64,000 nucleotides of DNA from the NCBI RefSeq assembly GCF_000018025.1, contig NC_009831.1:5312501-5376500 (forward strand). Direction: 5' to 3'. Origin of the DNA: Shewanella sediminis HAW-EB3. GTDB lineage: Bacteria; Pseudomonadota; Gammaproteobacteria; Enterobacterales; Shewanellaceae. A program made the translations under genes and the position numbers. Numbering within the stretch: position 1 is the stretch's first letter; every line of letters starts with the position of its first letter. Shown in pieces: positions 53,217 to 56,528 of the stretch. A model generated the notes under the pieces. The model had not been told where the DNA came from. It searched no databases and saw nothing but the letters and a program-made list of their open reading frames with translations.

Positions 53217-53891
53217 TCAATCGATACTTTGAGCCTCGGCCATCAATAGCCCCTTTTCTACCCAAAGTAATACCCTTATCCCTTTGACGTAGATCTCCAG
53301 AGCCTGCTCTCCGGACTCTACATTCGGTAATTTCCCGTAAAGCTCTGCATCATAACCCACCTCATAAAGCGTCACTTTATTTCCGGTATCTGATTGATAA
53401 CGGATCTGAGCCGCGCTAACACCTTGAATTGAGCAGTATCTGGCGCCGAGCAACTGGTTATTTTGCTTCGAAAATAGGCTAGACTTCACAACTGAAAAAT
53501 CCAATTCGGTAAAATACTCACGTATTGGCTCGATTCTCTGAGAATCGATTTCGAGGGGCTTCATATTAATATGGTTCATCGCCACTTCATCGGCAATCTT
53601 CCAACTCATAGCGGGTTCCCCTGGGTAAAAATTGAGGCTCAAGGTCAAAATTAAAATAAGGCTGGCTGCCAGAGCCATATAAGATCTCAGGCGCATCTTC
53701 GAGCTGCTGACATCTTCGACTTGCCCTTTACTATTATCGAATGATGACTCTACCGGTGACTCCTCTGCCATATGACCCGCAAGCAAGTGTTCGAATTTCG
53801 TCAGTTTTTCATCATCGAGACGCTGCTGCTCGATAAACTGCTTTGCCGACTGTTTAAATGAGGTATCCATCTTATCTGTTTTTTTGTTCAT
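53217..53891 (-). CDS. putative anti-sigma factor, last gene of the bufferin operon
   Basis: A 224-aa bitopic protein: cytoplasmic N-terminus (1-68) with short helices, a membrane helix at about 69-87 (SYMALAASLILILTLSLNF) and a periplasmic C-terminal domain with an isolated Cys (RYCSIQG). I recognise no named domain. Its start overlaps the ECF sigma gene by four bases (ATGA); this placement and topology fit an anti-sigma factor. Inferred mainly from context. Confidence 0.7.
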   Translation of the reverse strand: MNKKTDKMDTSFKQSAKQFIEQQRLDDEKLTKFEHLLAGHMAEESPVESSFDNSKGQVEDVSSSKMRLRSYMALAASLILILTLSLNFYPGEPAMSWKIADEVAMNHINMKPLEIDSQRIEPIREYFTELDFSVVKSSLFSKQNNQLLGARYCSIQGVSAAQIRYQSDTGNKVTLYEVGYDAELYGKLPNVESGEQALEIYVKGIRVLLWVEKGLLMAEAQSID

Positions 53892-54373
53892 GATGAAGCC
53901 CCGAACAAACGCCTCTTCTGCTCTTCGCTCGCATCGGCAACCTTTTGCTTTATTCGGTGTAAACGGGACAGAATCGTCCCTCGGGGCTGATTAAGATCTT
54001 CGCTGATTTCTGATGCGCTAAAGCCATCGATGGCCCACAGGTAGAGCACCTCTCGTTCGGCAGAGTTCAATAAATTAAGCACTTGTTCAATGAGGTGATG
54101 CTGTATCTGCAATGTCTCTAAAGACGTTTCATCGAGTAAAATCGGCGCATGCTCTTCGATAGACTCGAATGCCACCTTCTGTTTGCGACGGCAATCATCG
54201 ACAAATTGATTACGAATGATCTTCCTTATGTAGGCATGGGAATACTCAACCTCTTTACCCCGTCGAATCCACTTCTCCAGCGACGTTTGCAGTAGATCTT
54301 CCGCACTTCCGCGTTCGGTCGTTAAACAGAAACAGTAACGATACAGGCCGTGAAGCTGCTCGCGAGACAACAT
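53888..54373 (-). CDS. ECF RNA polymerase sigma factor
   Basis: A 161-aa sigma-70 family ECF factor. Region 2 is visible as LYRYCFCLTTERGSAEDLLQ and YIRKIIRNQFVDDCRRK; region 4 as LLNSAEREVLYLWAIDGFSASEISEDLNQPRGTILSRLHRIKQK. No anti-sigma or extra domain is fused. It sits directly after the DUF2063 gene and overlaps the putative anti-sigma gene. Likely control of its own operon, in answer to metal or oxidative stress, is inferred from related clusters. Confidence 0.92.
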   Translation of the reverse strand: MLSREQLHGLYRYCFCLTTERGSAEDLLQTSLEKWIRRGKEVEYSHAYIRKIIRNQFVDDCRRKQKVAFESIEEHAPILLDETSLETLQIQHHLIEQVLNLLNSAEREVLYLWAIDGFSASEISEDLNQPRGTILSRLHRIKQKVADASEEQKRRLFGASS

Positions 54374-55153
54374 TTATCTTGGCTCTCGCAGGCGAAATCC
54401 ACATATCCAGCCCTTAGCGATGAATTCCGCCAGGTCCGTCATATCAAAAGACGCCTCCGTCATCACTCCTAAGGTCACTTCGGCATCGAACGCCATTAAC
54501 AGCTCATACCCGAGGCGGGATATGCGCTCCACTCTGGGTTTAAAGGGATCACGATAGATACAGAAGTGATAATGCTCCTGAGGCATATCAATCTCAACAT
54601 GGTCACTGTGCTCTTGAGCATTGCGCTCTTGATGATTCAGCCAGATCTCATATAGAGGAAAACCTGAACTTCGTATAAAAATATCGGGACGCAATATCAT
54701 AACGACATTCTCTTGCTGTCGTTCGCTAAGTCCAGCTATTTCAGCCAATTCGAGGCAGGGTCTACCGTCCGCGGCATAATAACTCTTAAGCAGCAACCAC
54801 TCGAGTTGAGCGAGCTCGGGGAGATATTCGAGTCCATTAAATGCTAAGTTAGTTTCAAGTATCTCCTCAATAAACCGGGGAAAACCTTCACCATAATGGT
54901 TAAGATTACTCTCCTGCATAGGATTAACGTTAAGGTAATCCTGAGCCATCTTAGAGAAACACCCCTCGCCGACAATCTGCTCACAGATAGGAAATGCCTT
55001 AATCAAAGTCGCCTTTAAGGCCTGTAGGGTGTTATTACGATATATCTCTAACCGGGCTGACTCACGGGGGTTTACCAGTGAAAGGAACTCTTCATCACAG
55101 CCTTCCGGACTGAGCGCCTCCATAAATGAGTTCTGCCATTGAGCTAAGCGCAT
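54374..55153 (-). CDS. bufC: DUF2063 protein, bufferin maturation partner (BufC-like)
   Basis: A 259-aa protein of the DUF2063 family (N-terminal putative DNA-binding-like helical domain): LAQWQNSFMEALSPEG and ARLEIYRNNTLQALKATLIKAFPICEQIVGEGCF are the family signature. In bufferin systems this protein recognises the precursor and presents it to the MNIO enzyme. It overlaps the DUF692 gene by 10 bp, and the sigma gene starts right after it. Confidence 0.88.
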   Translation of the reverse strand: MRLAQWQNSFMEALSPEGCDEEFLSLVNPRESARLEIYRNNTLQALKATLIKAFPICEQIVGEGCFSKMAQDYLNVNPMQESNLNHYGEGFPRFIEEILETNLAFNGLEYLPELAQLEWLLLKSYYAADGRPCLELAEIAGLSERQQENVVMILRPDIFIRSSGFPLYEIWLNHQERNAQEHSDHVEIDMPQEHYHFCIYRDPFKPRVERISRLGYELLMAFDAEVTLGVMTEASFDMTDLAEFIAKGWICGFRLREPR

Positions 55154-56046
55154 TGTCCTACCCCTCTGTCTCCCTCAGCTTTCCCGCGAGAATCGGTTCG
55201 ACTACCATTCGGGTGCCGATTTTCATCGGCGGCCTGTAATATCGCCGCTGCGATATTTCGTTCGGCGAGCAACCTCTCCAGTGGTGGTAAGTCGTTATCC
55301 CACTCGATCATGCTGGGTATGGCTCCATTTTTGGCAATAAAATGCTCGAATTCCTGCCATACATCTTTGTCTACCGGATGGTTATGGGCATCGAGCAGAA
55401 AGTCTCCCTTGTCATGGAAACCCGCGAGGTGGATCTGCTTCACCCGCTCCACCGGAATAGCTTCCATAAACGCCTGCATATCCTGATTGAGATTCTTAGC
55501 CGTGACATAGGCGTTATTGATATCTAACAGCAGATAGCAATCGGCTTCTTTCGCCACAGCAGCAAGAAACTCTCCTTCGGTCAGCTCATTAAATTGACAG
55601 CTTACATAGGTAGACACGTTTTCAAGCAGAATTCTTTCACCCATAAACTCCTGCACCTGAATAATACGTCGGCTCAGGTGTTTCACCGCCTCTTCGGTGT
55701 AGGGTAAGGGCAAGAGATCGGGGACCTTACGTCCGGCATTACCAGAGAAGCTCGCATGCTCCGAATACCAGAGGGCGCCCGTTGATTCCTTTAACGCTCT
55801 GATTTGTGCCAGATAGTCCAGGTCTATGGCAGGCAAACCACCTAAGGAAAGGCCTACGCTGTGGAGCACCAGAGGATAACGTTCGGCAATGGCCTCGAGC
55901 ATCTGCTTATTCAGCCCTCCTTCAACTAACCAGTTATCCGCCAACACCTCAAACCATGGAATATCGGATTCATCGGCAGCTAAGATCTGCTGCACATGGG
56001 GGATGCGCAGGCCAATTCCCGCACCGTTCAGACTCCCCCGTTTCAT
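55144..56046 (-). CDS. bufB: DUF692 multinuclear non-haem iron oxidase (MNIO, BufB-like)
   Basis: A 300-aa TIM-barrel enzyme. Metal-ligand segments are visible in order: LHSVGLSLGG, YSEHASFSG, LLENVSTY, LLLDINNAYV, HLAGFHD, DAHNHPV and MIEWDNDLPP. MNIO enzymes oxidise cysteines in ribosomal peptides; in bufferins they yield thiooxazole-type groups that bind copper. Its start overlaps the precursor gene by one base. The last 30 residues are a polar tail not part of the core. Confidence 0.92.
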   Translation of the reverse strand: MKRGSLNGAGIGLRIPHVQQILAADESDIPWFEVLADNWLVEGGLNKQMLEAIAERYPLVLHSVGLSLGGLPAIDLDYLAQIRALKESTGALWYSEHASFSGNAGRKVPDLLPLPYTEEAVKHLSRRIIQVQEFMGERILLENVSTYVSCQFNELTEGEFLAAVAKEADCYLLLDINNAYVTAKNLNQDMQAFMEAIPVERVKQIHLAGFHDKGDFLLDAHNHPVDKDVWQEFEHFIAKNGAIPSMIEWDNDLPPLERLLAERNIAAAILQAADENRHPNGSRTDSRGKAEGDRGVGQCA

Positions 56047-56330
56047 CAGGATTTAGCCGGTTTCACGGCTTTAATGACGCCGCCAGTGATCTTTTCACAC
56101 GTTCCGGCAGGCACATAGACCCACTCATTGGGTAAGTTGTCAGACTTAGCTTGTCCGGCGCAGCCATGACTGCCATCGAGTGCACCACAATCATTTGCCC
56201 CAGCCTTGGCAATACCTGCACATTTTTCCCACTGCGTGGGCTGTTCTGGAACCGCGTTAGCCCCCATGGATATTCCCGCAGCCAAAATACCTGCCACAGT
56301 TAATCCGAGAGCTTTGTTAGTAGAGTTCAT
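56046..56330 (-). CDS. bufA: DUF2282 peptide, bufferin precursor (BufA1-like)
   Basis: A 94-aa precursor, first gene of the operon. Signal peptide at residues 1-26 ([16 protein letters not shown]), then a mature part with exactly four cysteines: C37, C48, C57 and C78. The [14 protein letters not shown] motif is the DUF2282 hallmark. In characterised relatives an MNIO/DUF2063 pair modifies the cysteines and the peptide is exported through Sec to sequester copper. AAGGA SD nine bases before ATG. Nothing in the gene departs from the family. Confidence 0.92.
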
Positions 56331-56495
56331 ATCGTTCTGTCCTTATAGAAAATGAAGTGTTCATATCTATAACGAATACTAGACCCTGTTTGATTGCACC
56401 GATTGTAAATTATTTGTTAGTTATTGTTCCTGCGGTCTGACTTGTCAGCTTCTTAGAGGGAATGAGTTGGGGAGCAAGGAATTGAGAACAGATAC

Positions 56496-56528
56496 AAAAA
56501 AGCACTTCAAAAAGAAGTGCTTTTATTT
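56496..56528. terminator. rho-independent terminator downstream of gltS
   Basis: AAAAGCACTTC-AAAAA-GAAGTGCTTTT, an 11-bp stem. It lies about 35 bp after the gltS stop on the minus strand, isolating gltS from the bufferin operon whose promoter must lie in 56331-56495. Confidence 0.85.

Follow-up and report, generated by a model that had tools for sequence, protein, structure and literature searches.

The window analysed here is a stretch of 64,000 nucleotides from Shewanella sediminis HAW-EB3 (NC_009831.1, positions 5,312,501 to 5,376,500, in a genome of 5,517,674 bases on a single contig), and the system in question is a row of five open reading frames (ORFs) on its minus strand, from 56330 to 53217. 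In order of reading they encode a bufferin precursor (bufA), an MNIO enzyme, a DUF2063 partner, an extracytoplasmic function (ECF) sigma factor and a membrane protein, which we call the last protein (Table 1). Successive frames overlap by 1, 10, 0 and 4 nt, and the ORF coordinates and the family assignments agree with the description given in an earlier note on this DNA, that of a complete bufferin-type operon on one strand with overlaps or zero spacing.

Table 1. Features of the five-gene row and its surroundings (positions in the window)
Feature	Position	Strand	Basis
bufA, 94-aa BufA1-type precursor, four Cys, signal peptide ending ANA	56046..56330	-	DUF2282 (Pfam) 1.9e-24; NCBI names of some orthologues; alignment
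Predicted Sec signal peptide of BufA, residues 1-26	56253..56330	-	by eye; mature part starts VPEQP
MNIO enzyme, BufB type, 300 aa	55144..56046	-	Pfam, NCBIfam, alignment to 3bww
DUF2063 partner (BufC/PME type 1), 259 aa	54374..55153	-	Pfam 8.5e-20; NCBIfam HvfC family match well under cut-off
ECF sigma factor, 161 aa	53888..54373	-	Pfam, NCBIfam, solved ECF sigma factors
Putative anti-sigma factor (last protein), 224 aa, bitopic, distantly DUF3379-like	53217..53891	-	profile match, homologues, model, conservation
Membrane helix, residues 64-87 of the last protein	53631..53702	-	model; hydrophobicity by eye
Periplasmic domain, residues 90-224 of the last protein: helix and six strands, G-x-R-Y-C-S motif	53217..53624	-	
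Putative ECF promoter: -35 TGCAATCAAA at 56398-56389, -10 CGTTA at 56374-56370	56370..56398	-	conserved motif
Terminator-like hairpin separating gltS from the operon	56498..56524	-	weak: 3 found in the region vs 3.6 expected

By its sequence, the biosynthesis core is of the ordinary bufferin-1 (BufA1) type. The precursor, which had been described as carrying a signal peptide and four cysteines, indeed belongs to DUF2282, and some of its orthologues, for instance that of Shewanella violacea, are called BufA1 family periplasmic bufferin-type metallophore at NCBI; the four cysteines are invariant in 20 aligned sequences picked from 120 listed. In Buf1, according to the accessible text of PMC12452194, modification falls on the central cysteines, while a disulphide links the outer two; for thiooxazoles, a loss of mass and an absorbance near 305 nm have been reported (PMC13097082, accessible text). 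The MNIO enzyme matches the Pfam family MbnB_TglH_ChrH (1.1e-95), passes the NCBIfam model MNIO_BufB (315.9 bits against a cut-off of 310) and aligns with the solved relatives 3bww, 8hci and MbnB with the His/Asp/Asn/Glu motifs kept, as judged by eye; a search with it against viral contigs gave no relative. The sigma factor consists of sigma70 regions 2 and 4 only (Sigma70_r2 and r4_2, both over the Pfam cut-off), reaches 61.1 bits against the 42.9 required by the NCBIfam sigma70-ECF model, and matches its best solved ECF sigma factor at 2.2e-10.

The five-gene unit is widely conserved. An alignment of 31 last-protein sequences, with no bufferin genes in the query, was searched against one-per-species genomes and found 118 loci, of which the best 80 were kept for locus counts, with genes called by profiles built from the window proteins. 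The order precursor, MNIO, DUF2063, sigma factor and last gene on one strand occurs in 55 of the 80, so that the sigma factor and the bitopic protein stand as the last genes of the operon not only in the window, where ORFs, Pfam and a structure model had agreed with this part of the earlier note. All 23 Shewanella-titled loci are among the 55, 32 of which lie outside Shewanella; the closest relatives of the last protein are from this genus. The non-Shewanella loci of the 80 are mostly from other Gammaproteobacteria, joined by two Betaproteobacteria-titled metagenome-assembled genomes (MAGs), three Hyphomicrobiales-type MAGs and one Oligoflexales. In every one of the 55 five-gene loci, sigma and last gene either overlap or are separated by at most 30 nt. 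The precursor gene is present in 62/80 loci. The regulator pair stands alone on the strand of the last gene in 15/80, two of them (L069, L070) with bufferin genes on the other strand nearby; the rest have precursor, DUF2063 and the pair without a separately called MNIO gene (3/80), precursor and pair (2/80), no precursor (3/80) or the last gene alone (2/80). Three loci (L086, L089, L099) begin at or near a contig end.

A sample of 369 gammaproteobacterial genomes gives the frequency of this arrangement. DUF2282 was found in 97 of them, the last-protein type at E up to 0.001 in 34 (17 at E <1e-18) and NrsF over its cut-off in 14. The survey of other DUF2282 clusters for the same last gene, which the earlier note had proposed, placed it within 3 kb of DUF2282 in five genomes (G000, G338, G342, G478 and G540, coordinates compared by eye), and NrsF lies within the same distance in four (G364, G462, G483, G493), on the opposite strand each time. 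With 5 against 4 of 369 genomes, the last-protein type is a minority regulator, about as frequent beside DUF2282 as NrsF. In two Cupriavidus clusters and one Thiothrix plasmid cluster the family profiles label no such last gene (the Cupriavidus stretches being unannotated).

A single promoter-like motif precedes the precursor gene. We scanned the window and the 62 loci that have a precursor gene, from as much as 300 nt ahead of the ORF to 30 nt inside it, and found TGCAATCA-N15/16-CGT in 54 of the 63 regions against 0.005 expected from single-base shuffles, counts which are not independent events because the loci are related. Fifty cases have full flanks; of these, 45 show a spacer of 15 and five a spacer of 16, with A predominating at the two bases next to the -35 motif and C or T coming after CGT in 98%. 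The best site in the remaining nine regions agrees at 10 of 11 positions in seven, at 9 in L091 and at 8 in L058, where a strict site lies 376 nt before the MNIO gene. Among 2000 windows drawn at random from these loci, true sites included, a score of 11 was reached by 16 and a score of 10 by 29. The genome of S. sediminis holds five plain-motif sites, where the reversed pattern has two. Four of the five are opposite open frames of 466-592 codons, and the remaining one precedes bufA by 68 nt; a further site, the sixth, has a longer spacer and falls inside a 781-codon frame. The bufA site being the only one clear of long open frames, the operon itself is probably the main target of its sigma factor. 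The conservation of the motif before bufA in many genera is in keeping with control of the operon by its own sigma factor.

On the scale of the class, a search of the 369 genomes with an overly strict -10 element yielded 23 sites, spread over 21 genomes, where the reversed pattern yielded 11; four of the 23 adjoin a last-protein match. A looser form, applied to 16 chosen genomes, gave 25 sites against 4; 14 of these stand before bufferin genes, the regulator pair or its target and 11 elsewhere, and the five of the 11 that were examined lie inside or opposite long open frames. As looser-form sites also occur elsewhere, the motif by itself is no proof of a site. Two genomes with the pair and no DUF2282 match (G351, G487) have two motif sites each. 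One precedes the pair; the other, elsewhere in the genome, lies upstream of a secreted protein from the family that stands before sigma in sister operons, so that the motif is linked to the sigma factor independently of bufferin loci.

The last protein is modelled with a short cytosolic part, one membrane helix and a conserved domain outside. Its periplasmic part was earlier taken to have no known domain, which holds as far as matches over cut-off are concerned and needs qualifying otherwise: DUF3379 (PF11859) matches weakly over residues 55-184 (29.5 bits, 5.8e-7, under the Pfam cut-off of 33.2), some homologues carry a precomputed DUF3379 label, and the modelled fold seems to resemble, weakly, that of the RseB/MucB C-terminal domain. 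NrsF (PF06532) matches neither this protein nor anything else in the genome. We compared residue conservation in 68 bufferin-linked proteins, those whose stretch includes a gene for precursor, MNIO or DUF2063, and in 27 others. G149, R151, Y152, S154 and F132 are invariant in both sets; Cys153 is kept in 100% and 96%, His107 in 97% and 100%, Glu102 in 98% and 100%, and Asn106 in 100% and 92%, respectively. His107 and Cys153 are candidates for a metal or redox site. A metal site composed of Cys153, His107 and Met217 was also considered and was dropped in part, position 217 being Met in only 61% of the bufferin-linked proteins. K111, P112 and R164 are kept in 95-100% of the bufferin-linked set against 38-53% of the others, and we considered whether K-P might tune the sensor to bufferin. 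In a tree of 94 rows, computed with the columns just named left out, the K-P state changes once, so that it marks a clade and gives this idea no independent support. By position, topology and conservation the last protein appears fit to be an anti-sigma factor other than NrsF.

From these observations we regard it as quite probable that the five genes form a self-contained bufferin-1 operon, switched by its own sigma/anti-sigma pair under periplasmic stress. At rest, the short cytosolic part of the last protein would hold the ECF sigma factor at the inner membrane; it is from the gene pair and the topology that we infer this inhibition. Stress in the periplasm, with excess copper or another thiol-reactive agent as its most likely cause, would act on the periplasmic domain, and the freed sigma factor would guide RNA polymerase to the one promoter of Table 1. 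The whole operon would then be transcribed, regulators included, and in this way the switch would amplify itself and afterwards reset. The MNIO enzyme and the DUF2063 partner would modify the precursor in the cytoplasm, with the central two cysteines, by analogy, becoming thiooxazoles, and the modified precursor would be exported and bind metal. Copper is plausible as the signal from what is known of bufferin biology, and the gig (bufferin) operon of Cupriavidus, situated beside rpoQ-rsqA, is induced by copper and gold according to the accessible text of PMC10304878.

A number of observations weigh against this reading. No known anti-sigma family of Pfam or NCBIfam reached its cut-off for the last protein, and its cytosolic part is modelled at low confidence. 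Both would suit a membrane co-factor of export or maturation, with the sigma factor controlled only by transcription; we think this very unlikely, since the last gene stays with sigma where bufferin, MNIO and DUF2063 are uncalled, the pair alone occupying its strand in the 15 loci mentioned, two of which have bufferin genes on the other strand while one starts at a contig end. Twelve of the 17 strong last-protein matches in the genome sample are not beside DUF2282 on the contig. Elsewhere the pair or its relatives have other neighbours: in one locus (L094:5847-8297) motif and pair come with a thioredoxin and a DsbD_TM protein replacing the bufferin genes, other stretches read have related pairs with peroxiredoxin and thioredoxin (L104) or DoxX (L106), and in two more (L125:4630-6419 by Pfam, L126:3545-5460 by eye) a more distant sigma pair and a cytochrome P460-type gene point away from each other, and the motif faces both ways in the interval between. 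Deletion of rpoQ in Cupriavidus raised gig expression (PMC10304878, accessible text), so that RpoQ control of gig has to be treated as assumed, and copper did not induce an MNIO cluster of Microbulbifer that has another type of precursor, as far as the available part of PMC12538549 goes.

Because related regulators adjoin redox genes or cytochrome P460, copper is not the sole signal that fits, and these contexts seem to point as much to periplasmic redox stress as to copper. One may suggest that the pair senses periplasmic oxidative or thiol stress, such as hypochlorite, with bufferin as one of several outputs and copper acting only via thiol damage. We give this suggestion a substantial minority chance. 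Apart from the contexts just listed, it draws on the near-complete conservation of Cys153 in both protein sets and on RpoE2 of Haemophilus influenzae, which reacts to hypochlorite and has under its control msrAB and an operon encoding a DoxX-like protein (PMC7907618, accessible text); against it, the bufferin precursor gene is present in the large majority of the loci while each redox context is found in one or two, and the sigma-F-dependent genes of Caulobacter were not induced by agents making reactive oxygen species, according to the part of PMC3511200 at hand. It may also be that bufferin itself is the signal, the metal-free peptide keeping the last protein inhibiting via its periplasmic domain until copper loading removes the peptide. 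The joint occurrence of precursor and last gene, which extends to two loci (L087, L096) without called MNIO or DUF2063, agrees with this, as does the conservation of K111-P112 and R164 in bufferin-linked proteins and not in the sister clade; we nevertheless find it improbable, as K-P is a clade mark by its single change and is retained by seven of the 22 proteins that lack bufferin nearby, a count that leaves out five rows in which contig or protein is cut. Within the reading of an operon switched by its own pair, we keep both copper and thiol stress, leaning to copper for the bufferin-linked members.

A broader suggestion can be made from the sister clade, where the gene before the pair often encodes a secreted protein some 137 aa long that bears a VSCADF motif (DDPSIKG...VSCADF). 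Such proteins (L103:7095-7508, L118:4659-5072, L120:3951-4358, L121:892-1287, and in L145 and L146) precede the sigma/anti-sigma pair or the promoter motif where bufferin is absent, and two members scanned gave no Pfam or NCBIfam match over cut-off. Tentatively, and with more doubt than confidence, we suggest a dedicated, unnamed sigma/anti-sigma class of Proteobacteria. Its anti-sigma factors would carry a fused RseB-like domain that itself detects copper or thiol stress in the periplasm, Cys153 and His107, both near-invariant, forming the sensor site, and the target of its one strongly conserved promoter would have been exchanged in evolution between bufferin and the VSCADF protein. If this is true, the secreted Cys-containing protein would be a functional stand-in for bufferin.

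Compared with the bufferin-1 clusters CC3254-3257 of Caulobacter and gigPABT of Cupriavidus, the Shewanella operon is alike in the DUF2282 precursor with its signal peptide and four cysteines, in the MNIO enzyme and DUF2063 partner, and in an ECF sigma factor nearby. It differs in that sigma factor and regulator end the same gene row instead of forming a separate or divergent unit, in a regulator that is not NrsF, and in having no DoxX, which is frequent and not universal in such clusters. In Caulobacter the bufferin genes are governed by sigma-F/NrsF (PMC3511200, accessible text), and both this pair and RpoQ/RsqA likewise combine an ECF sigma factor with a membrane regulator tied to bufferin genes. 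NrsF shares with the last protein a conserved periplasmic cysteine; according to the same text, however, it has six membrane spans and two cysteines, against one span, a folded periplasmic domain and one cysteine here, and the Caulobacter promoter reads GTAACC-N16-CGAA, against TGCAATCA-N15/16-CGT in the Shewanella-type operon. The class II anti-sigma factor CnrY binds CnrH by two helices (PMC7406223, accessible text), and the short cytosolic part of the last protein has two predicted helices as well, in a low-confidence model. The available text of the MNIO-cluster survey PMC12452194 names NrsF as the only anti-sigma factor, and in the literature searched, with subscription papers mostly outside its scope, no report of this regulator type or promoter turned up. 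While the core is of an already known type, the cotranscribed sigma/anti-sigma switch would thus be new to the bufferin literature searched, as a second regulator type besides NrsF in a field where the switching-on of bufferin genes is little studied. With its precisely predicted promoter, this small one-operon system may serve for asking which periplasmic signal calls for a copper-buffering peptide.

The absence of BufD, the DoxX-type protein, which the earlier note had remarked upon, is confirmed in so far as ORFs and Pfam find no DoxX gene adjoining the operon; all five DoxX matches in the genome are about 1.8 Mb or more away on a circular map. The absence looks like a trait of this operon type rather than a local loss. 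A same-strand ORF of at least 80 aa follows the last gene within 250 nt in 12 of the 55 five-gene loci, and no DoxX was recognised directly downstream in any of the 55 (7 of the 12 ORFs scanned, the others judged by eye). A search of the 80 loci with the five own-genome DoxX proteins also gave none, and is weak, having missed the DoxX of L106 that Pfam detects. One could take an operon without BufD for a decaying remnant, since DoxX is a core part of bufferin clusters in the accessible text of PMC12452194; we give this hardly any credence, as all five genes are open and overlapping, the precursor is 97-98% identical in three near relatives, and the lack of DoxX is typical of the type.

Upstream of the operon lies gltS, read in the same direction, and downstream a convergent kinase-like gene. 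An Rfam scan of the bufA-gltS interval gave no RNA element, and a sigma-70 scan upstream of bufA no site. A second MNIO cluster is present in the same genome at about 3455780-3458078; no sigma gene is evident in the 3.8 kb read there, and the cluster comprises a 181-aa oxazolin-like precursor with EGKCG repeats, an MNIO gene and an apparent DUF2063-type partner.

Variants of the gene row were also seen. In two loci a single ORF matches both the MNIO and the DUF2063 profile (L091, 585 aa; L093, 515 aa), and these may be fused. Two others (L072, L128) lack a called MNIO gene among their precursor, DUF2063, sigma and last genes, and L087 and L096 represent a minimal operon of precursor, sigma and last gene with the promoter motif. 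In one Shewanella group a gene for a DCC1-like thiol-disulfide oxidoreductase (L039:5086-5472, identified by Pfam in this locus alone) stops 68-102 nt short of the precursor ORF, and similar ORFs are found in L042-L044, L046, L053, L054, L056 and L057.

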